Assembly: GCF_025506355.1 (NCBI RefSeq)
Contig: NZ_JANZYP010000004.1
Location: 115,667-179,666, forward strand
Length of the DNA stretch: 64,000 nucleotides
DNA from: Sphaerisporangium corydalis
GTDB lineage: Bacteria; Actinomycetota; Actinomycetes; Streptosporangiales; Streptosporangiaceae
Reading direction: 5' to 3'
The notes beneath the pieces were generated by a model. That model did no database searches, was not told the DNA's origin, and worked only from the letters and a program-made list of their open reading frames with translations. How positions within the stretch are numbered: the stretch's first letter is position 1; each line of letters begins with the position of its first letter. The translations under genes were made by a program, and so were the position numbers. This document shows positions 53,138 to 64,000 of this stretch, one piece after another.

Positions 53138-53940
53138 CCCCCTCATACCAACCGGACGGTATGCCGCTGCTCGACGTCCGGGACGTCACCGTCCGCTTCG
53201 CCGGGCTCACGGCCCTGGACGGGGTCGGCTTCGCCGTCGCGCCGGGCACCGTGCACGCCGTCATCGGGCCGAACGGCGCGGGGAAGTCCACCTTCTTCAA
53301 CGTCCTGTCGGGGGTGTACAAGGCCACGTCCGGCAGCGTCCGCCTCGACGGCGCCGAGCTGACCGCGCTGCCGCCGCACCGGGTCGCCGCGCTGGGGGTG
53401 GCCCGCACGTTCCAGAACATCGCGCTGTCGCGTCACCTGCCGGTGGTGGACAACCTCATGCTCGGCCGCCACCGGCTGACCCGGGCCGGGTTCGTCTCCT
53501 CCGGGCTGCGCCTGCCGCACGCCCGCCGCGAGTGGGCCCGCCACCTGGACAGGGTCACCGAGATCGCCGGATTCGTGGGCCTCGGCGACCGCCTCGGCAC
53601 GCCCGTGGGGCTGCTGCCGTACGGGGTGCAGAAACGGGTCGAGCTGGCCCGCGCGCTGTGCATGGAGCCCCGGCTGCTGCTGCTCGACGAGCCCGTGGCC
53701 GGGATGAACGGCGGCGAGCGCCTCGACATGGCCGAGCTGATCGTCGCCGTCCGGGAGAGCCTCGGCATCTCGGTCCTGCTCGTCGAGCACGACATGGGCA
53801 TGGTCATGCGCCTCGCCGACCGGGTCACCGTCCTGGACTTCGGCCGCCGCATCGCCGACGGCACCCCCGAGGAGGTGCAGCGCGACCCGCACGTCGTCCG
53901 CGCCTACCTCGGCACGAGCCCCGACCAGGAGGACATGTGA
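53134..53940 (+). CDS. livG: Branched-chain amino acid-type ABC transporter ATPase LivG
   Basis: A 268-residue ABC ATPase of the LivG type. Walker A GPNGAGKST (45-53), ARTFQNIALSRHLPVVDNL, degenerate signature LLPYGVQKRVELARAL (normal for LivG, which has PYG in place of SGG), Walker B LLLDEPVAGMN and the LivG-like EHDMGMVM. GTG 53134 overlaps the livF stop as GTGA and GAGGTGG stands upstream; GTG 53125 is the alternative. Partner of LivF. Confidence 0.92.
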   Translation: MTPSYQPDGMPLLDVRDVTVRFAGLTALDGVGFAVAPGTVHAVIGPNGAGKSTFFNVLSGVYKATSGSVRLDGAELTALPPHRVAALGVARTFQNIALSRHLPVVDNLMLGRHRLTRAGFVSSGLRLPHARREWARHLDRVTEIAGFVGLGDRLGTPVGLLPYGVQKRVELARALCMEPRLLLLDEPVAGMNGGERLDMAELIVAVRESLGISVLLVEHDMGMVMRLADRVTVLDFGRRIADGTPEEVQRDPHVVRAYLGTSPDQEDM

Positions 53941-54827
53941 TCACGTTCCTGGAGCTTCTCGTCAACGGGATCTCCATCGGGGCCGTCTACGCGCTGATCG
54001 CCCTCGGCTTCGTCGTCATCTTCAAGGCCACCGAGGTGGTCAACTTCGCCCACGCGTCGCTGCTGCTGGCCGGCGGCTACCTGGTCGCCCGGCTGCAGCC
54101 GCTGACCGGCTTCTGGGCGGCGCTGGTGATCGGCGTCGCGGCGGCGGCCGTCGTCGGGGCCGCGATCGAGTTCCTGATCATCCGGCGGGCGAACGTGGCC
54201 TCGCACAGCGTGCTAGCGATCGTCACCATCGGCGTGGACATCGTGCTCACCACCGAGCTGACCCGCCAGATCGGCACCGAGATCCTCGCGCTCGGCGACC
54301 CGTGGGGGGACTCGGTGGTCCACCTCGGCGAGGTGACCGTCGCCGAGACCCGCATCGTGGCGCTGTTCACCGCGGCGGCGCTGATCACGCTGTTCCTGCT
54401 GGCGTTCAAGTACACCGGCTGGGGCATCGCCATGCGGGCCACCGCCGAGGACTCCGAGACCGCGGCGCTCATGGGGATCCGGCTCGGCCGCGTCTCCCTG
54501 AGCGCGTGGGCGGTCGCGGGGGCGCTGGCGGCGGTCGCGGCGGTGTTCCTGTGCGTGTTCCCGACGCCGGGACTGGACCGTGGCACATCGCTCGCGGCGA
54601 TCAAGGCCTTTCCCGCGGCGATACTCGGCGGGCTGGACTCCACCACCGGTGCCCTGGTCGGCGGGCTGATCGTCGGCGTCACCGAGGCGCTGATGACCGG
54701 GTACCAGAACCAGCTCGCGTTCCTCGGCCGGGGCATCGGGGACGTCGCCCCGTTCCTGGTCATGGTCGTCATCCTGCTCCTCCGCCCGGCGGGGCTGTTC
54801 GGCATCAGGGAGACCGCGCGTGTCTGA
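53937..54827 (+). CDS. livH: Branched-chain amino acid-type ABC permease LivH
   Basis: A 296-residue permease with about eight hydrophobic segments. LivH markers: NGISIGAVYALIALGFVVIFKATEVVNFAHA at the start and the loop GIAMRATAEDSETAALMGIRLGRV. The end LRPAGLFG is typical. GTG 53937 overlaps livG by four bases after GGAGG. Forms the membrane channel with LivM. Confidence 0.92.
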   Translation: MITFLELLVNGISIGAVYALIALGFVVIFKATEVVNFAHASLLLAGGYLVARLQPLTGFWAALVIGVAAAAVVGAAIEFLIIRRANVASHSVLAIVTIGVDIVLTTELTRQIGTEILALGDPWGDSVVHLGEVTVAETRIVALFTAAALITLFLLAFKYTGWGIAMRATAEDSETAALMGIRLGRVSLSAWAVAGALAAVAAVFLCVFPTPGLDRGTSLAAIKAFPAAILGGLDSTTGALVGGLIVGVTEALMTGYQNQLAFLGRGIGDVAPFLVMVVILLLRPAGLFGIRETARV

Positions 54828-56016
54828 CCTCCACGAGACCGCCGCGACCGGCACGGAGGCGCGGGCCGTGGCCGTCCGCCGCCGGCTCACCCGGCCGCTC
54901 ATCTGGGTCGCGGCGGCGGCGCTGGCCATCGCCGTCCCGTTCTACCTGGAGGGGTTCTGGCTGCAGACCGGCCTGTTCGCGATGTCGGCGGCCGTCGGCG
55001 CCATCGGGATCAACCTGCTGACCGGCTCCACCGGGCAGCTCTCCATGGGTCACGCCTTCTTCCTGGCGATCGGCGCGTACGCCTACGTGTACTTCTCCGC
55101 CGACCCCGAGCAGGGCGCGCGGCAGGCGCTCGGCGGGCTCGGCCTGCCCACCCCGCTCGCGGCGGTGCTCGCGGTGCTGACCGCCGGAGTGGCGGGCGGC
55201 CTGTTCAGCCCGATCGCGGGACGGCTGAAGGGCGCCTACCTCGGCATCGCCACCCTCGCGCTGATCTTCCTCGGGCAGCACCTGCTGTTCAACGCCACAG
55301 CGGTCACCGGCGGCTACAACGGCCGCGCCGTCCCGCCGCTGCACCTGTTCGGGCTGACGTTCGCCGACACCCCGGCGCTGGTGGTGATGGACGTGCCGTT
55401 CGGCGCGCTGGAGCGGCTGTGGTTCCTCGGGCTGCTGCTGGTGCTGGGCGCCGCCGCGTTCGCGCGCGGGGTGCTGCGCGGTCGTCCTGGGCGGGCGATG
55501 AATACCATCCGCGACCACGAGATCGCGGCGGGGGTGATGGGCGTCCCCGTCGCCCGGTACCGGGCCGGCGTCTTCGTGCTGTCCTCGATGTACGGCGGGC
55601 TGGCCGGGGTGATGCTGGCCCTGGTCTTCCAGCGGACCGTCCCCGACTACTTCGGCGTGTTCCTCTCGCTGGACTACCTGGCCATGATCGTGATCGGCGG
55701 CCTGGGGTCGATCGGGGGCGCGGTCATCGGCGCGGTCTTCGTGTCGATGCTGCCCCAGCTCCTCACCCGTTACAGCGACAGCCTCCCGCTGATCGCCGAA
55801 CCCGGCTCCGGCGGGGTCTCCCCCGCCGAGGCGGCCCGCATCCTGTACGGCGCCGCCGTGGTCTCGGTGGTGCTGTTCCTGCCCGGCGGCCTGGCCGGGC
55901 TGTTCGCCCGGCTCCGCGCGGGGGGCGGCGGCCGTACGGGCCGGCCGGCCCGCGCGCGGGGGCTCCGGTTCTCCTCCTCACCCACTCCGACCCCTTCTCC
56001 CGACACCAGGAGCTGA
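54820..56016 (+). CDS. livM: Branched-chain amino acid-type ABC permease LivM
   Basis: A 398-residue permease. After a cytoplasmic lead it has LivM features: INLLTGSTGQLSMGHAFFLAIGAYAYVY, KGAYLGIATLALIFLGQ, and the cytoplasmic loop RAMNTIRDHEIAAGVMGVPVARYR, then GGLGSIGGAVIGAVFV. The C-terminal 45 residues are Gly/Arg/Pro/Ser-rich and beyond the normal fold end. GTG 54820 overlaps livH by eight bases. Confidence 0.92.
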   Translation: MSDLHETAATGTEARAVAVRRRLTRPLIWVAAAALAIAVPFYLEGFWLQTGLFAMSAAVGAIGINLLTGSTGQLSMGHAFFLAIGAYAYVYFSADPEQGARQALGGLGLPTPLAAVLAVLTAGVAGGLFSPIAGRLKGAYLGIATLALIFLGQHLLFNATAVTGGYNGRAVPPLHLFGLTFADTPALVVMDVPFGALERLWFLGLLLVLGAAAFARGVLRGRPGRAMNTIRDHEIAAGVMGVPVARYRAGVFVLSSMYGGLAGVMLALVFQRTVPDYFGVFLSLDYLAMIVIGGLGSIGGAVIGAVFVSMLPQLLTRYSDSLPLIAEPGSGGVSPAEAARILYGAAVVSVVLFLPGGLAGLFARLRAGGGGRTGRPARARGLRFSSSPTPTPSPDTRS

Positions 56017-56017
56017 C

Positions 56018-57280
56018 ATGGGCAAGTTCGGCATCCGTACCGGCGCGGCCACGATGGCCGCGCTCGCGCTGGCGCTCAGCGCGTGCGCCAGCGGCAAGGC
56101 CACGGGCGGTGAGCCCGCCACCGGCGGCGACGGGGTGAAGACCGGCCCCGGCGTGACCGCCGACAAGATCTCGCTCGGCATGCTCACCGACCTCACCGGC
56201 CCCTACGCCTCGCTGGGCAAGAGCATCACCCAGGCACAGCAGCTGTACTTCGAGCAGGTCAACGCGGCGGGCGGGGTGTGCGGGCGCAAGCTCGAGGGCA
56301 TCGTGCGCGACCACGGGTACGACGCGCAGAAGGCGGTCGCCGCCTACACCGAGATCGCGCCGAAGTCGGCGGCGATCACCCAGTTCATCGGGTCGCCGAT
56401 GGTCACCGCGCTCAAGCAGCGCATCGAGGGCGACCGGCTGCTGACGATCCCGATGGCGTGGGCCACCAGCCTGCTGGGCGGCCAGGCGATCCAGGTGACC
56501 GGCACGACGTACGACATCGACATGATCAACGGGGTGGACTTCCTGGCCAAGGAGAAGGGCATCAAGTCCGGCGACAAGATCGGCCACCTGTACTTCGAGG
56601 GCGACTACGGCCAGAGCGCGCTCAACGGGACCAAGTACGCGGCGGAGAAGCTCGGCCTGACGGTGGTCGAGCAGAAGATCAAGGCCACCGACCAGGACAT
56701 GAGCGCGCAGGTGTCGGCGTTCAAGGACGCGGGCGTCAAGGCGATCATGGTGTCGGTCGGGCCCAAGCAGGCGGCCTCGCTGGTCGGCGTGGCGGTCGCC
56801 AAGGGGATGGACATCCCGTTCGTCGCCAGCAACTCGGCCTACAGCCCGCAGCTCCTCGGCACGCCGGCCGCCCCGGCGCTGCTGAAGGACTACTACATCA
56901 TGACCGCGGCGGCGCCGATGAGCTCGCCGCTGCCGGCCATCAAGAAGCTGGTCGCCGACTACCAGGCCAAGTACGCCGGGCAGCCGGTGGACAGCGGGGT
57001 CGGCGCCGGCTACTCCGCGGCGGTGATCGTCGGGGACGCGCTCAAGCAGGCCTGCGCGTCCAAGGACCTCAGCCGGGAGGGCATCGTCAAGGCCCACCGC
57101 TCCCAGCCGTCGTGGGAGGGCGGGTTCGGCACGCCGATGGACTTCTCCCAGATCGACCGGCCCGCCTCGCGCGCGTCGTTCATCACCAAGCCGGACAAGG
57201 CGGCGGTCGGCGGCGCGGTGGTCTTCAAGGAGGCGGCCATCTCCGACCTGGCCAAGGACTACCAGGTGCCGGTCGGCTGA
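56018..57280 (+). CDS. livK: Branched-chain amino acid-type ABC solute-binding lipoprotein LivK
   Basis: A 420-residue extracellular lipoprotein, lipobox ALSAC with C23. A type I periplasmic-binding (Peripla_BP_6) fold follows: KISLGMLTDLTGPYASLGKSITQAQQLYFEQVNAAGGVCGRKLE. Last gene of the operon, one base after livM; AGGAGCTGAC precedes its ATG. Family-level similarity includes receptors for leucine, amides and aromatic acids, so the cargo is open. A long hairpin follows the stop. Confidence 0.92.
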   Translation: MGKFGIRTGAATMAALALALSACASGKATGGEPATGGDGVKTGPGVTADKISLGMLTDLTGPYASLGKSITQAQQLYFEQVNAAGGVCGRKLEGIVRDHGYDAQKAVAAYTEIAPKSAAITQFIGSPMVTALKQRIEGDRLLTIPMAWATSLLGGQAIQVTGTTYDIDMINGVDFLAKEKGIKSGDKIGHLYFEGDYGQSALNGTKYAAEKLGLTVVEQKIKATDQDMSAQVSAFKDAGVKAIMVSVGPKQAASLVGVAVAKGMDIPFVASNSAYSPQLLGTPAAPALLKDYYIMTAAAPMSSPLPAIKKLVADYQAKYAGQPVDSGVGAGYSAAVIVGDALKQACASKDLSREGIVKAHRSQPSWEGGFGTPMDFSQIDRPASRASFITKPDKAAVGGAVVFKEAAISDLAKDYQVPVG

Positions 57281-58701: not shown

Positions 58702-59886
58702 TCAGTCCGGGAGGTGGCCGGTCCTGGCGATGTCGCCGTACACGCGGGCGCTCGGCTTGACCGTGCGCCGGAAGGTGGACCGGTCGACGGCGATCAGGCC
58801 GAAGGCCGGCGCGTAGCCGAGGAGCCATTCGAAGTTGTCGAGCAGGCTCCAGTGGAAGTACCCGCGCACGTCGGCGCCCTCGTCCATGACCGACCTGAGC
58901 GCGCGCAGGGCGCGGGTGACGTACTCGGCGCGGCGCGTGTCGTCGGCGGTGGCGACGCCGTTCTCGGTGACCATGATGGGGGTGCCGCCGGTGATCTCGG
59001 CGGCGTGCCGGACGGCGCCCGCGACGGCCTCGGGGTAGTACTCCCAGCCGATCTGGGTGGTCTCGGCCCCGTCGGGGACCGGGAGCCGTCCGTCGGGGCC
59101 GATCAGCTCGCGGGTGTAGACCTGCACGCCGACGAAGTCGTCCCCCCTGGCCGCCTCCAGGAAGACGTCCTGACGGAGCCGGGCCCATTCGTCGACGGCC
59201 TTCCCGGCGTCGCCGACCGGCTGGTAGTCGACGGCGCAGACCGTCCAGCCGGCCGACAGGCCCGGCACCGACCGGAGCACCTCCACCGACCTGCGGTGCG
59301 CGGTGACGAACGCCTCGACGGTCTCGGGAGCGGGGACGGCGGGGCCGGGGGGCGCGCTTCCCGGGGCCAGGTCGTACTCCAGCGTCGCGGCGAAGTTCGG
59401 CTCGTTGATCGTGCAGACCCAGCCGACCCCTTCCGACACCACGGGCAGCACGGCCTCGGTGAAGCGGGCGAACCGGTCGGCAGCCTCCGGGCCGGTCCAC
59501 CAGCCGGAGCGGCGGAACCAGCGGGGGACGGTGATGTGCTGAAGCGTCACCACCGGCGACACGCCCCGCTGGAGGCATCCCTCGACCATGCGCCGGTAGT
59601 GGTCCAGGGCGGCGCGGGAGAACGCGCCCTCCTCCGGTTCGATGCGGCTCCAGTCCAGGCTGAACCGGTAGGAGGTCAGGCCCAGGTCCGCAAGCAGGCC
59701 GACGTCCTCGCGCCAGCGGTGGTAGCTGTCGCAGGCGTCCCCGCTCGGCTCGGCGAACGGGCCGCCGGGGGTGTGCTCCAGCTCCCAGAAGTCGCTGGCG
59801 ACGTTCCCGCCCTCGATCTGGTGCGCGGCCGAGGACGCGCCCCAGAGGAATCCCTCGGGGAACGCGCCCCCGCCGTCGGTCGTCAT
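58702..59886 (-). CDS. GH1 family beta-glucosidase
   Basis: A 394-residue intracellular GH1 hydrolase, shorter than the usual 440-480. Catalytic acid/base E162 (TINEPN) and nucleophile E308 (VTENG) are present; FLWGASSAAHQIEG, the GH1 entry motif with Q and E contacts, and the aglycone-side HWSLLDNFEW are intact. It hydrolyses beta-glucosides or other short beta-glycosides taken up by the cell. The typical TLYHWDLP stretch reads TLQHITVPRW, a deviation that may shift the substrate. A palindrome, TACTTAAGTA, lies about 100 bases upstream. Confidence 0.9.
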   Translation of the reverse strand: MTTDGGGAFPEGFLWGASSAAHQIEGGNVASDFWELEHTPGGPFAEPSGDACDSYHRWREDVGLLADLGLTSYRFSLDWSRIEPEEGAFSRAALDHYRRMVEGCLQRGVSPVVTLQHITVPRWFRRSGWWTGPEAADRFARFTEAVLPVVSEGVGWVCTINEPNFAATLEYDLAPGSAPPGPAVPAPETVEAFVTAHRRSVEVLRSVPGLSAGWTVCAVDYQPVGDAGKAVDEWARLRQDVFLEAARGDDFVGVQVYTRELIGPDGRLPVPDGAETTQIGWEYYPEAVAGAVRHAAEITGGTPIMVTENGVATADDTRRAEYVTRALRALRSVMDEGADVRGYFHWSLLDNFEWLLGYAPAFGLIAVDRSTFRRTVKPSARVYGDIARTGHLPD

Positions 59887-60080: not shown

Positions 60081-61532
60081 GTGGACACCGAAGGCTGGGC
60101 GGTCAGCGTGCCGTCCGGATACCGGGCCGGGAACTGGCGGGTCACCCGGCCGATCGCCACCGGGAGCTGGGCCAGCGTCTACGAGGCCAGGCACGACGAC
60201 GGGCGCACCCTGGCGGCCCTGAAGTTCCTGCCCACCGGCACCGTCACCCGCCGCCAGCTACGCCACCTGCACGACATGGCCCAGCGGGAGATCCGCCTGC
60301 ACCGGACCCTGCAGCACCCCCGGCTGATCTCGCTGCGGGAGACGCTGGAGATCGACGACGCGGCGCGCCCCGAGCTCGACGGCGCCTGCGTCCTGGTGAT
60401 GGACCTGGCGGCCCGCTCGCTGGCCGACACCCTGCGGGGCGGCGCGCCGGTCCCCGGGGCGCTGCGGCTGGTCACCGGGATCTGCGAGGGCCTCGCCCAC
60501 ATGCACGCCGAGGGCTGGGTGCACGGCGACCTCAAGCCGAGCAACGTCCTGGTCATGCCCGACGGCTCGGTCCGGCTCGCCGACTTCGGGCTGGCCACCG
60601 AGATCGACGGCACCCACGGCTACCTGCCGCCGGCGGGCTCGATGGACCACCTGCCCCCCGAGCGGTGGAACGAGCCGCTGACCGAACGCGGGCACCCCAT
60701 CAGGACCTCCGCCGACATGTGGGCGCTGGGCGTGACCGCCTGCCAGCTCCTCACCGGCCACCTGCCGTTCCTCGCCCCCACCCCCCGCGCCCGCTACGTC
60801 GCCGCCGCCGAGTACGCCGCCGGGGCCCGGCCGCTGGCGCTGCCCTCGTCGCTGCCCGAGGCGTGGCGCTCCTGGATCGGCGACTGCCTGGCGCCGCACC
60901 CCCGGTCCCGGCCCGGCGCGGCCCGGCAGCTCTACCGGCTGCGCGCCATGACCGGCACCGTCCCCGACCCGCACCCGAAACGGCGCCGCACGGCCGAGAT
61001 GGCCGCGGTCGCCGTCATGGTGCTGGCGCTCGGCACGGGCGCGAGCGGCAACTCCTCCCCCGCCGACCCCTTCGCCCAGTGGCTGCGCACCGGCTCCGAC
61101 ATCCCCCGGCAGTACCGGGCGCTGATCGTCCAGGCCGGCACGATGTGCGGGGAGCCGGGGCTCAGCCCGGCGCTGGTCGCCGCCATGCTCAAGGCGGAGA
61201 GCGGGTTCGACCCGGACCTGTCCGACGTGGCCAAGAACGAGTACGGGATCGCGCGCTGGACACCGTCGGTGCTGCAGTACTACCTGCCCCCGGGCAAACG
61301 CGGCACCGTGCCCGCCCCTCCCCTGTCGGCGGAGGACTCCATCCCGGCCGTCGGCCGCTACCTGTGCGTGCGGATGCCGTTGCTGTCGGGCGTGCGCGGG
61401 GACCCCGGCCTGCTGGGCGCGGCGGCCTTCCGCAGCTCCGACGAGGCCGTGCGCCGCGACCACGGCGTCCCCCCGCGGTTCCAGGCGCACATCGAGCGGG
61501 TGCGCCGGTACCGGGCCGAGTACCTGCCCTGA
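60081..61532 (+). CDS. Ser/Thr protein kinase fused to a lytic-transglycosylase-like domain
   Basis: A 483-residue predicted membrane protein. Residues about 18-290 are a eukaryotic-type protein kinase: glycine loop IATGSWASVYEA, K48 (LAALKFL), E70, HGDLKPSN catalytic loop with D150 (HGD, so non-RD type), and D168 (ADFGLA). A single hydrophobic segment (about 304-322) would cross the membrane. The extracellular part (about 340-483) looks like an SLT-type lysozyme fold: ALVAAMLKAESGFDPD with E373 where the catalytic Glu stands, then YGIARW, matching the G-x-x-Q-x-like stretch only loosely. GTG 60081 follows GGGAG. The gene is convergent with an FHA protein gene, a likely phospho-partner. Such a sensor of or actor on peptidoglycan is unusual. 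Confidence 0.8.
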   Translation: MDTEGWAVSVPSGYRAGNWRVTRPIATGSWASVYEARHDDGRTLAALKFLPTGTVTRRQLRHLHDMAQREIRLHRTLQHPRLISLRETLEIDDAARPELDGACVLVMDLAARSLADTLRGGAPVPGALRLVTGICEGLAHMHAEGWVHGDLKPSNVLVMPDGSVRLADFGLATEIDGTHGYLPPAGSMDHLPPERWNEPLTERGHPIRTSADMWALGVTACQLLTGHLPFLAPTPRARYVAAAEYAAGARPLALPSSLPEAWRSWIGDCLAPHPRSRPGAARQLYRLRAMTGTVPDPHPKRRRTAEMAAVAVMVLALGTGASGNSSPADPFAQWLRTGSDIPRQYRALIVQAGTMCGEPGLSPALVAAMLKAESGFDPDLSDVAKNEYGIARWTPSVLQYYLPPGKRGTVPAPPLSAEDSIPAVGRYLCVRMPLLSGVRGDPGLLGAAAFRSSDEAVRRDHGVPPRFQAHIERVRRYRAEYLP

Positions 61533-61549
61533 CCGCCCGGCGGCCGGCC

Positions 61550-62296
61550 TCACCCCTCCAGCCGATCCAGGTGCCTCTCGGTGACCAGGTCGAACCGGAG
61601 GGCGATGGACACCAGGGCGGCCCGCTGCCAGTCGGCCTTCCCCGGCCCGTCCGCCGCCTTGACGCGCAGCTTGGTGCGTGCCAGGTAGTCGATGTGGAAG
61701 TTCACCGCCGCCCGGGTCAGGCCCGCGCACCCCGGCACCCCCCGCAGCCGGTCCAGCACCTCGGGCACGGTCGGGATCACCGACGAGGAGCAGTCGCGAA
61801 GGCGCGTCTCGCACAGGGCCACCAGCACGAGGAAGTACTTCGCCGACTCGTCCAGCGGGAACGCCGAAATCGTCGCGTCGCCGCCGGACGGCAGGTCCTG
61901 CGCCTCGCAGTCGATGAAACTGTGCTGGGAGGCGAAGACGAGGAACGAGCACGACCCGTCGGTCACCGGCACCACCACGCGGGCGAACTCGAACGGCACG
62001 GGGGCGTTCACCCGCCTCGGCGGCACCTTCACGAACTCGCCGCCGCCCTCGGGGTTCTCCACGACCAGGGTGGCGGTGCGGCTCAGGTTCGTGAGCAGCC
62101 AGTAGTCGTCCACCGCCCTGATGACCCCGGCCCGCCGGGACACCCCGGGGTGGCCGAGCGGGAAGTCGACCGGCGCCGACCGGCCGCCGCGCCCGAACAC
62201 GACCTCGCGGCCGGGCTGGACCTCCAGCGGCGGCGGCCCGCCGGCGGCCGGTCCGGCGCCGGGGCCGTTCTCGATCTGGAGCAGGACAGTACGCAT
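61550..62296 (-). CDS. FHA domain protein
   Basis: A 248-residue protein. The FHA phospho-threonine-binding fold (about 25-95) shows the GREVVFGRGGR strand with the key Arg, HPGVSRRAGVI (S-R contact) and LTNLSRTATLVV where the usual S-x-x-G-x-x-V-N loop lies. The C-terminal 130 residues are helical, with a possible winged-helix-like segment (TRAAVNFHIDYLARTKLRV). ATG 62296 follows GAGGG. The gene is tail to tail with the kinase fusion gene, 17 bases apart; the FHA domain probably reads phosphorylation by that kinase. Confidence 0.85.
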   Translation of the reverse strand: MRTVLLQIENGPGAGPAAGGPPPLEVQPGREVVFGRGGRSAPVDFPLGHPGVSRRAGVIRAVDDYWLLTNLSRTATLVVENPEGGGEFVKVPPRRVNAPVPFEFARVVVPVTDGSCSFLVFASQHSFIDCEAQDLPSGGDATISAFPLDESAKYFLVLVALCETRLRDCSSSVIPTVPEVLDRLRGVPGCAGLTRAAVNFHIDYLARTKLRVKAADGPGKADWQRAALVSIALRFDLVTERHLDRLEG

Positions 62297-62417
62297 GCGC
62301 GGCACCCTCGCGACATCCTGGAAGCTTCCAGGTACCCCCGCCCACACCCTACGTCGCACAATGACGTCGTTCGCAGAAGACGGCACCGGCGACAGCGCGA
62401 CGCAACGGGAGGCGTAG

Positions 62418-62674: not shown

Positions 62675-62718
62675 GGATCCGTCACGGGCGGTCGCCGGAT
62701 CCGTCACGGGCGGTCGCC
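62675..62718. repeat. 22-bp perfect tandem repeat at a gene end
   Basis: Two identical units, 62675-62696 and 62697-62718, each with GGATCCGTCACGGG and CGGTCGCC. The second contains the CU044_5270 stop codon (62704-62706); the first lies just downstream. Related fragments (GGTCACGGTCACCCGGC) lie further left. Confidence 0.9.
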
Positions 62719-63714
62719 GGCGCGGTCCACGATGCCGGAGGCCAGTTCGGTCACCGTCCATACGCTTCCCGCGCGGAAGGCGATCTCGCCGTTGATCTCC
62801 TCGCCCCGCAGCCAGACCATGCGCGTGCCCAGGTACCGGAAGGTGCCCGGTTCCAGGATCACGTACCGGCGGGTCACCGGGCCGGTGTCGCGGAAGACCC
62901 CGAGCCCCTTGCGGCCCGACCCGTCCTGGACGTCCAGCTCGATCCGGACACCGGGGATCCTGGCCAGCGCCCGGTAGATCGCCGCCTCCAGCTTCGGCGG
63001 CATGACCGCCTGCTGCCCGAGGTAGACCGAGAGCACGCGGAACGCCCGCGCGTCGGCGTCCTCCGCGCCGGCCGTGCCCCCGGCGGTCTCCACCGGCAGG
63101 TTGATCCAGTGCAGGTCCGCGCTCACCCGGGCGAGCAGCTTGGCGGGGTCGGTGGGCAGCTTCCTGAGCCTCTCCGCGTACCGCTGCGGCGAGAGGTCGT
63201 CGTCACCGGGATCCGGCGGCACTTTCGAGATCCTCAGCCGCCCGTCGTCGCCGAACACCGCGGCCCGTTTGCCGTCGTAGCGGATCCACTCTTCCTGGAC
63301 GCGGCCCGCGTCCGGGCCGTTGGCCTGCTTGTCCATGCTCCTGGAGTACTGCCACTGGTCCGGCCTCGGGGTCGGCGAGGTCGAGCGCGACCCGGCGACG
63401 AGAGCCGCCCGCTCCAGCGTCACGGCGGTGCCGGCGTACCTGCCCGCCGCGCTCGGAGGCGCGCCGCCGGTCTGGCCGGGATGGGCGAACACGGCCACAA
63501 GCGCGGCCACGGCGGCGAACGCCGCGGCGAGCAGCAGCGGCCGGGGGAAGGCGCGGAGCCCGCGCCCGCGCGGTCCCGCCGCGGCACGGGCGGCGGAGAA
63601 CCGTCCGGCCTCCGGGCCCTCGGACATGAAGCGGGCGCGCGTGGCGGAGAGCCGGCCGGCGTCCGGCAGGGGGGCGTCCGCGCGCAGTTCACGAAGCGTC
63701 TTCAGATCATCCAC
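62704..63714 (-). CDS. CU044_5270 family membrane-anchored protein
   Basis: A 336-residue protein with one transmembrane segment (about 57-78; RPLLLAAAFAAVAALVAVF) and an extracellular C-terminal domain. The MDDLKTLRELRADAPLPD start and WQYSRSMDKQANGP-like middle match CU044_5270 family proteins, which normally follow ECF sigma genes in actinobacteria and may act as membrane-linked modulators. GTG 63714 overlaps the sigma gene end by eight bases and has GAGGAG upstream. The domain's mode of action is not known. Confidence 0.85.
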   Translation of the reverse strand: MDDLKTLRELRADAPLPDAGRLSATRARFMSEGPEAGRFSAARAAAGPRGRGLRAFPRPLLLAAAFAAVAALVAVFAHPGQTGGAPPSAAGRYAGTAVTLERAALVAGSRSTSPTPRPDQWQYSRSMDKQANGPDAGRVQEEWIRYDGKRAAVFGDDGRLRISKVPPDPGDDDLSPQRYAERLRKLPTDPAKLLARVSADLHWINLPVETAGGTAGAEDADARAFRVLSVYLGQQAVMPPKLEAAIYRALARIPGVRIELDVQDGSGRKGLGVFRDTGPVTRRYVILEPGTFRYLGTRMVWLRGEEINGEIAFRAGSVWTVTELASGIVDRAGDRP

Positions 63715-64000
63715 GGTCCTGCTCCTCGTCGAAAGCGGTGGGGTCGACCCCGCCCAGCGCGGCACGGGTCCTCTTCCTGGCCCGGTGCAGGCGCGACCGC
63801 ACCGTCCCGACCGGGATGCCGAGCGCGTGGGCGACCTCGTCGTAGGTGAGGTCGGCCCACGCGATCAGCAGCAGCACGTCGCGGTCGCCCGCCGACAACC
63901 CCGCGAGCGCGACCGCCAGGTCCCGGTGGGCGGCGGACGCGCTGACCTCGGCGTCGACACGTTCGGTGTAGCTCTCGGCGACGACGTCCACGCCCGTGCG
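63707..64000 (-). CDS. ECF-type sigma factor, C-terminal part (runs off the window)
   Basis: The last 97 codons of a sigma-70 family protein; the 5' part is beyond the window. Region 4 is complete: LAGLSAGDRDVLLLIAWADLTYDEVAHALGIPVGTVRSRLHRARKRTRAAL, with the region 4.2 recognition helix. Region 2 is not visible. The gene is co-translated with a CU044_5270 gene. Frame remains open to base 64000. Confidence 0.88.
   Translation of the reverse strand, partial: RTGVDVVAESYTERVDAEVSASAAHRDLAVALAGLSAGDRDVLLLIAWADLTYDEVAHALGIPVGTVRSRLHRARKRTRAALGGVDPTAFDEEQDRG

Follow-up and report, generated by a model that had tools for sequence, protein, structure and literature searches.

We have analysed a stretch of 64,000 nucleotides from the genome of Sphaerisporangium corydalis (Streptosporangiaceae; RefSeq assembly GCF_025506355.1, contig NZ_JANZYP010000004.1, positions 115,667 to 179,666 of the forward strand), which is called the window in the following, and have mainly focused on a pair of convergent genes. 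One of them encodes a membrane Ser/Thr protein kinase that carries, beyond its single membrane segment, an outer domain with a predicted fold of lysozyme type, and the other encodes a protein with an FHA domain. Features of the pair are listed in Table 1, with positions numbered from the first letter of the window.

Table 1. Features of the kinase-FHA gene pair in the window
Feature	Position	Strand	Basis
Membrane Ser/Thr kinase with predicted lysozyme-like outer domain, 483 amino acids, GTG start	60081..61532	+	Open reading frame, Pfam, start of relatives, predicted model
Cytosolic kinase domain, residues 21-282, HGD not HRD	60141..60926	+	PF00069; catalytic residues in 57/57 rows
Single membrane segment, residues 305-323, KRRRT before	60993..61049	+	Hydropathy and flank charge
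Predicted extracytoplasmic SLT/lysozyme-like domain, residues 328-483	61062..61529	+	AlphaFold model, Foldseek
Glu373, aligned with SLT catalytic acid	61197..61199	+	Glu in 112/119 relatives and 10/11 transglycosylase rows
Arg392 in place of motif II Gln	61254..61256	+	Arg in 116/119; Gln in 11/11 transglycosylase rows
Arg451 in place of AYNAG Asn	61431..61433	+	Arg in 109/119, Asn in 0/119; Asn in 10/11 transglycosylase rows
FHA protein, 248 amino acids, convergent with kinase, 17 bp away	61550..62296	-	Open reading frame, predicted fold, linkage counts
C-terminal helical domain of FHA protein, residues 153 to end, possible winged helix-turn-helix	61550..61840	-	Five helices; MarR profile 41.5% (weak)
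Thr142 of FHA protein, candidate phospho-acceptor in low-confidence linker	61871..61873	-	Thr in 68/68; pLDDT <50 at 128-143
FHA domain, residues 1-122	61931..62296	-	Beta strands in model; Foldseek best E 1.7e-5
Palindrome CCTGGAAGCTTCCAGG, candidate operator	62317..62332		20 bp upstream of FHA start codon

Kinase protein and predicted fold of its outer domain

The GTG start of the kinase open reading frame (ORF) is supported because relatives start at the same place (MDTEGW in L068). A Pfam search assigned residues 21-282 to Pkinase (PF00069, E 4.4e-37), and the Hanks-type set of Lys, catalytic Asp, Asn and DFG Asp is present, with K48, D150, N155 and D168 identical in all 57 aligned rows, the window protein included. 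The catalytic loop reads HGD and the canonical HRD is not found; in the same alignment, the middle residue of this loop is Gly in 20 rows, Arg in 36 and Ala in one. The only hydrophobic segment of the protein (residues 305-323, mean hydropathy 1.51) comes directly after KRRRT, and its flanks carry charges of +3 before and -1 after. Among 113 rows of the family, some of which have a helix-turn-helix (HTH) domain where the window protein has its kinase, a membrane segment with a mean hydropathy of at least 1.3 was found in 112 and of at least 1.6 in 104, and the kinase or HTH side carries more positive charge in all 113, as in a positive-inside topology. No PASTA family was among the Pfam matches of the window kinase up to E 1, and the NCBIfam model PknB_PASTA reached 82.2 bits against a cut-off of 450, covering the kinase part only.

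Fourteen full-length relatives (L009-L022, 66-76% identity) were found in five other genera. Since an FHA homologue lies no more than about 1.2 kb away in all 14 (loci L068-L081), the kinase-FHA arrangement is not a matter of chance.

When GTDB genomes were scanned, 262 stretches were found to encode a relative of the outer domain, and the best 80 of these 262 loci were examined. The outer domain itself has no Pfam match above cut-off (SLT, PF01464, 11.3 bits versus 21.3); with E allowed up to 1, 12 of 23 members of the family gave an SLT match, the best at 0.012, and searches of PDB sequences with the outer domain gave no convincing relative. Sequence searches of Pfam, NCBIfam and PDB alone would miss the outer domain. 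An alignment of 71 sequences (70 of the 80 retained loci plus the window), in which Cys356 is invariant, was used for an AlphaFold2 model, which has a mean predicted local distance difference test (pLDDT) score of 96.9 and a predicted template modelling (pTM) score of 0.92. Comparison of this model with PDB by Foldseek gave 148 matches, and each of the 50 listed (probability 0.89-1.00) is either a lytic transglycosylase or a related chitinase. On the other side, the best E is 3.1e-3, none of the 148 is under 0.001, and the query TM-score is 0.42-0.66 among the matches listed. We conclude that the outer domain is predicted to have an SLT/transglycosylase fold.

These results agree with most of a first-pass annotation of the same DNA, which had been made from its letters and had proposed a cytosolic eukaryotic-type kinase with K48, D150 and D168, a single membrane segment at about residues 300-325 and a lysozyme-like fold in residues 330-483, all in one polypeptide. 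The fusion lies in one ORF, relatives keep both halves, and the FHA gene that the annotation placed in convergent orientation lies, as it had stated, 17 bp from the kinase gene.

The FHA gene, its product and a candidate operator

Linkage of the two genes was counted in 297 family genomes, with FHA places taken at 1e-20 (n = 61) and kinase places at 1e-40 (n = 61). In this sample, 41 of the FHA places and 41 of the kinase places lie within 3 kb of each other, two of the 41 linked places (L121, L122) adjoining kinases with other ends. Seven of the remaining 20 FHA places have an adjoining kinase on inspection, which gives 48 of 61 in total; the seven comprise one SLT-family-like kinase cut by a contig end, three kinases with PQQ-type propellers (one of the three checked in Pfam) and three with other ends. 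Propeller- or other-ended kinases adjoin the FHA partner at L322, L324, L328, L327, L326 and L321. The gene arrangement varies among loci (convergent, divergent and tandem), and on two Streptomyces plasmids the FHA and kinase genes overlap by 4 nucleotides. Linkage that persists through such changes of orientation is good evidence of joint function.

Several counts weigh against a strict pairing. No kinase was found within the stretch taken in 13 of the 61 FHA places, ten of which (L330-L339) belong to one genus that keeps the FHA protein. Counted from the kinases, linkage to FHA is seen in only 41 of 61 places, and 20 of the 62 kinase loci among the best 80 have no FHA gene, 18 of these being titled Actinomadura; one genome of the Actinomadura group, G174, has an FHA-linked HGD form. 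The FHA neighbour is present at 42 of the 62 loci that encode the fusion, and the link is not universal.

The FHA protein scored below the Pfam cut-off for FHA (PF00498, 17.6 versus 20.7 bits). Its model (pLDDT 88.4, pTM 0.56) consists of a beta domain, a linker at residues 128-143 and five helices at 153-245, and the beta domain matches FHA domains in Foldseek, with 19 matches under 0.001. The FHA domain is N-terminal, and the EmbR-type order, with winged HTH and BTAD before FHA, was not found. Of the motifs named for FHA domains as GR, SxxH and NG in a passage of PMC1262709, Arg36 of GR is kept in all 81 rows and Ser53 in 68 of 81; against a phospho-peptide reader stands that Ala replaces the SxxH His in 80 of the 81 and that no conserved NG was seen. 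The protein may therefore plausibly bind a phospho-peptide. The earlier designation of this protein as a phospho-threonine reader finds support in Arg36 and Ser53 and none in the other two motif elements.

Thr142 is Thr in all 68 kinase-adjacent FHA proteins, in a linker that is otherwise variable. Nine of the 68 are linked to other sensors and 59 to SLT-type kinases, the latter being all rows that were not assigned to the other two groups and including L320, whose kinase is cut by a contig end. In 13 FHA proteins without a nearby kinase, the same column has Asp in six, Glu in four, Ser in two and Thr in one. A contrast drawn from these rows is weakened by the fact that the ten acidic cases all belong to a single genus, nine of them with the sequence ERT[DE] and the tenth with EHTD, so that each has a Thr one residue earlier. 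The idea that acidic residues replaced Thr142 upon loss of the kinase was dropped, because it depends on the alignment register and the Thr may merely be shifted by one. For OdhI and GarA, PMC8546545 describes that the Thr targeted by a kinase lies outside the FHA fold and that the kinase docks on the FHA domain.

The C-terminal domain of the FHA protein, helical in its model, is possibly a winged HTH. Points against this are that no HTH family in Pfam matches it and that hhalign comparisons are weak (MarR 41.5%, GerE 4.1%, XRE 0.2%; the positive control, MarR versus GerE, gave 85.4%). A PDB profile search with the helices gave one match, TEF-3, at E 0.14.

The palindrome before the FHA gene was found via a pattern from other genomes, with two mismatches at free positions, and 0.81 sites are expected by chance in the window at two mismatches. 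Its 14-bp core CTGGAAGNTTCCAG has one mismatch-free occurrence in the genome of 9.48 Mb. When the window site was used as the query before FHA genes, with up to 4 of 16 mismatches, the palindrome was found at 11 of 17 convergent HGD-type loci (shuffled mean 0.10) and at all five convergent HRD-type loci (0.03); L320 is counted in two groups, and related sequences share ancestry, so the counts are not independent. At 11 of 14 divergent loci chosen for alignment, CTGGYAGCTRCCAG-like sites lie 56-69 bp before the kinase start, a circular count because the CTGGYAGCTRCCAG-type pattern was derived from those same loci. Evidence on the other side comes from the divergent loci, of which just 2 of 20 have the palindrome (shuffled 0.13), from the other loci (3 of 39; 0.33), and from the genome, where the core within one mismatch occurs three times forward and once in reverse, versus two and three in the control. 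The CTGGYAGCTRCCAG-type pattern is also rarer than in reversed sequence across the 80 loci (27 versus 53), so that its placement, not its number, is notable; a wider pattern at one mismatch gave 27 versus 13 in the control. We regard the palindrome as a candidate operator of the FHA gene that is conserved in part of the family.

The FHA protein might instead be a kinase-recruited effector or a metabolic regulator and no transcription factor, as the missing HTH family match in Pfam would allow and as is the case for OdhI and GarA, FHA proteins described in PMC8546545 as regulating metabolism. We hold this to be rather unlikely in view of the helical C-terminal domain with its weak MarR-like profile match, the palindrome that precedes the FHA gene in convergent loci, and one lineage with an XRE DNA-binding domain where the others have the kinase, as described below.

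Active-site residues and exchange of the outer domain

The best 80 of the 262 loci include 62 kinase fusions, 13 ORFs of Streptomyces or Kitasatospora without a kinase, and 5 cut by contig ends. An XRE-type N-terminus was recognised by pattern in 12 of the 13 kinase-less ORFs and in L228, and L183 does not carry it within the same ORF; HTH_31 is above the Pfam cut-off in all three XRE-linked proteins checked. At the Streptomyces and Kitasatospora loci (L142, L152, L178 and others), the XRE HTH and the lysozyme-like outer domain are joined in a protein that also has a membrane segment, and this combination is a one-component version of the sensor. Streptomyces-type genomes carry HGD-kinase forms as well. 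The outer domain is thus found on three kinds of output, namely the HGD-type kinase, the HRD kinase and the XRE DNA-binding protein, the last of which points to sensing. Comparison of these sequences suggests, for the outer domain, the role of an exchangeable sensor.

In the class, the outer-domain profile matches at 1e-10 in 111 of 394 genomes; the class scan listed 27 rows in 23 genomes at 120 bits or more and the remainder below 90 bits, and the rows inspected below 90 bits are ordinary SLT enzymes, except L251. The ORF at L251 (2970-961, minus strand) contains, as recognised by eye, two SLT-like stretches and a ricin-like part at its C-terminus; the second of the two stretches lacks the catalytic Glu. 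The sample of the order gave matches at 1e-5 in 75 of its 297 genomes, of which seven score no more than 29-52 bits. The kinase-fusion gene is patchy in its own genus, because only 2 of 11 same-genus genomes, the source genome included, match at E 1e-40, and the other one (G129) has the HRD-kinase kind. The 13 pattern matches in viral contigs contained no relative.

In a tree of the outer domain, computed from 69 of 130 rows with 11 transglycosylase rows as the root, an XRE clade (13 rows, support 100/98) and an HRD-kinase clade (20 rows, 100/96) are nested within the HGD-kinase forms; the branches enclosing them have support of 97/80 and 96/91, with a program warning that long branches meet near the root. 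In a kinase tree (66 of 128 domains used, midpoint root), 26 control kinases form one side (93/93), and the L121 kinase, which has an Inhibitor_I36 end (PF03995 above cut-off), falls inside the HGD clade with support of 100/100. A kinase on a Streptomyces plasmid has, by eye, the same I36-like end. An origin of the HGD and HRD kinases as separate fusions was considered and is not shown by the kinase tree, which has long branches, a midpoint root and controls that were chosen by similarity to the window kinase.

For the active site, 119 distinct close relatives were compared with 11 lower-scoring transglycosylase-type rows, six of which were checked in Pfam and all six have SLT above cut-off. 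Glu373, which the first-pass annotation had put forward as a candidate catalytic Glu, lies in KAESGFDPD as it had stated and falls on the catalytic Glu of the transglycosylase rows. Motif II, GxAQ, has become GxAR in 116 of the 119 relatives, with Met in the other three and Gln in none, and the Asn of AYNAG is kept in none (Arg in 109). Glu373 is replaced in seven relatives (Leu in two, Gln in two, Ala in two, Met in one) that still keep the domain and fall at two or more places in the outer-domain tree. The active site is altered and the fold is kept, even after the acid has been lost, which argues for binding without cleavage. On the other side, Glu373 is kept in 112 of the 119, and this leaves room for activity. 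Cys429 is present in every row, including all 11 transglycosylase rows. Taken over the aligned sequences, the outer domain is probably a pseudoenzyme sensor that binds and does not cut.

The outer domain might also read a signal that does not come from the wall, for instance a partner lipoprotein, an antibiotic that binds transglycosylases or an inhibitor of lysozyme, which would suit the altered motif residues of the substrate site and the Inhibitor_I36-like outer domain in the same kinase clade, by its name no wall binder; the fold class, however, binds glycan strands and the pocket Glu is strongly kept, and this alternative appears improbable. The proposal of the first-pass annotation that an active lytic domain couples wall cleavage to phospho-signalling within one chain has in its favour the kept Glu373, the predicted SLT fold and the shared Cys429, but it is hardly likely given the lost motif II Gln and AYNAG Asn, the seven relatives without the acid, and the same domain on a DNA-binding protein, which suggests sensing.

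Proposed relay, known systems and genomic surroundings

Considering the computed architecture and topology, the predicted fold, the linkage of the two genes, the presence of the sensor on different outputs, the altered motifs and the conservation of Thr142 and, in part, of the palindrome, we favour, with moderate confidence, a two-protein, one-way Ser/Thr phospho-relay with exchangeable sensors, in which the sensor here is a lysozyme-like probable pseudoenzyme. The wall ligand, the loss of cleavage, the phosphorylation of Thr142, the clamping by FHA and the DNA binding are steps that we infer. In this relay, the SLT/lysozyme-like domain would be held outside the membrane by the single-pass kinase. 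Because its usual catalytic surroundings are lost and its fold is kept, its most likely role would be to bind a ligand derived from the wall, or a glycan strand, and to leave it uncut. Binding may alter the pairing or activity of the kinase in the cytosol, and the kinase would then phosphorylate the FHA protein encoded beside it, with the invariant Thr142 of the linker as the most likely site. Phospho-Thr142 could be clamped by the FHA domain of the same protein, as in OdhI and GarA, where an FHA domain clamps a phospho-Thr intramolecularly. Such clamping may free or close the C-terminal helical domain, probably an HTH, and this domain would bind the palindrome before its own gene and perhaps few others.

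A wider reading, which we offer as tentative, is that the pair represents a widespread actinobacterial Ser/Thr counterpart of two-component systems. Membrane kinases with exchangeable sensors (lysozyme-like pseudoenzyme, I36 inhibitor-like, beta-propeller and others) would be combined with a dedicated FHA-linker-HTH regulator switched when one invariant linker Thr is phosphorylated, and the lysozyme-like sensor would have arisen from an enzyme that cuts the wall and would have moved between kinases and DNA-binding proteins.

Several known systems are related in part. PASTA kinases (PknB, PrkC and Stk1) likewise have a cytosolic kinase, one membrane segment and a wall-facing outer domain, whereas the window protein has no PASTA and instead a predicted SLT/lysozyme fold, an HGD loop and an adjoining gene for an FHA partner. 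Mycobacterial PknH-EmbR also combines a membrane Ser/Thr kinase with an FHA-bearing regulator; EmbR has the order winged HTH, BTAD and FHA, while the window regulator has an N-terminal FHA domain followed by a different helical domain. OdhI and GarA with PknG share an FHA protein with a kinase-targeted Thr outside the FHA fold, for which Thr142 is only a candidate here, but the Thr of the window protein lies between the FHA and C-terminal helical domains, and the kinase next to it sits in the membrane and has an outer sensor. GH23/SLT lytic transglycosylases (MltE and Slt70, and actinobacterial SLT with NlpC/P60) share the predicted fold, the catalytic Glu and cysteines; the window domain differs in GxAR for GxAQ, AYRSS or similar for AYNAG, the lack of a Pfam SLT match above cut-off, and its signalling tether. 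Membrane-bound XRE-type regulators are represented by the Streptomyces and Kitasatospora relatives, in which HTH_31 is combined with a membrane segment and an outer domain of the same kind; in the window protein a kinase stands where these have the HTH, and its output would require a second protein.

To our knowledge, the reading of wall state in filamentous actinobacteria is poorly known beyond PASTA kinases. The present family is of interest since a wall-cutting fold has apparently been turned into a sensor on three kinds of output, and the FHA partner offers one residue (Thr142) and one DNA site as handles. If a Ser/Thr relay with one dedicated regulator is true, it would provide a simple, testable logic for many actinobacterial kinases. 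In a word search of a survey of prokaryotic kinase architectures (PMC1262709) and of a kinase classification paper (PMC2877116), the words transglycosylase and lysozyme were absent. A review (PMC6213207) describes PASTA and propeller sensors and EmbR, and the word transglycosylase was absent in a word search of it; actinobacterial kinases fused to propellers or PASTA appear in PMC7159879. Among the open-licence papers covered by a literature search, no title or abstract beginning describes this layout.

Neighbouring ORFs were also considered as partners of the family. Four checked in Pfam were a DUF3418 helicase, an enoyl-CoA hydratase and two without a match, and they were judged to be ordinary synteny; clustering of neighbours among the loci was dominated by antisense ORFs. 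Beside the kinase-FHA pair, an ORF at 62704-63765 (minus strand, no Pfam match) adjoins a sigma-factor-like ORF at 63707-63991 (minus strand, by eye), and a sigma factor is annotated near the pair on a Streptomyces plasmid too (L319). Genes for an ABC transporter of the branched-chain amino acid type (by eye) lie at 53900-57280 and are followed by a GH1 glycosidase gene at 58702-59886 (minus strand, PF00232).

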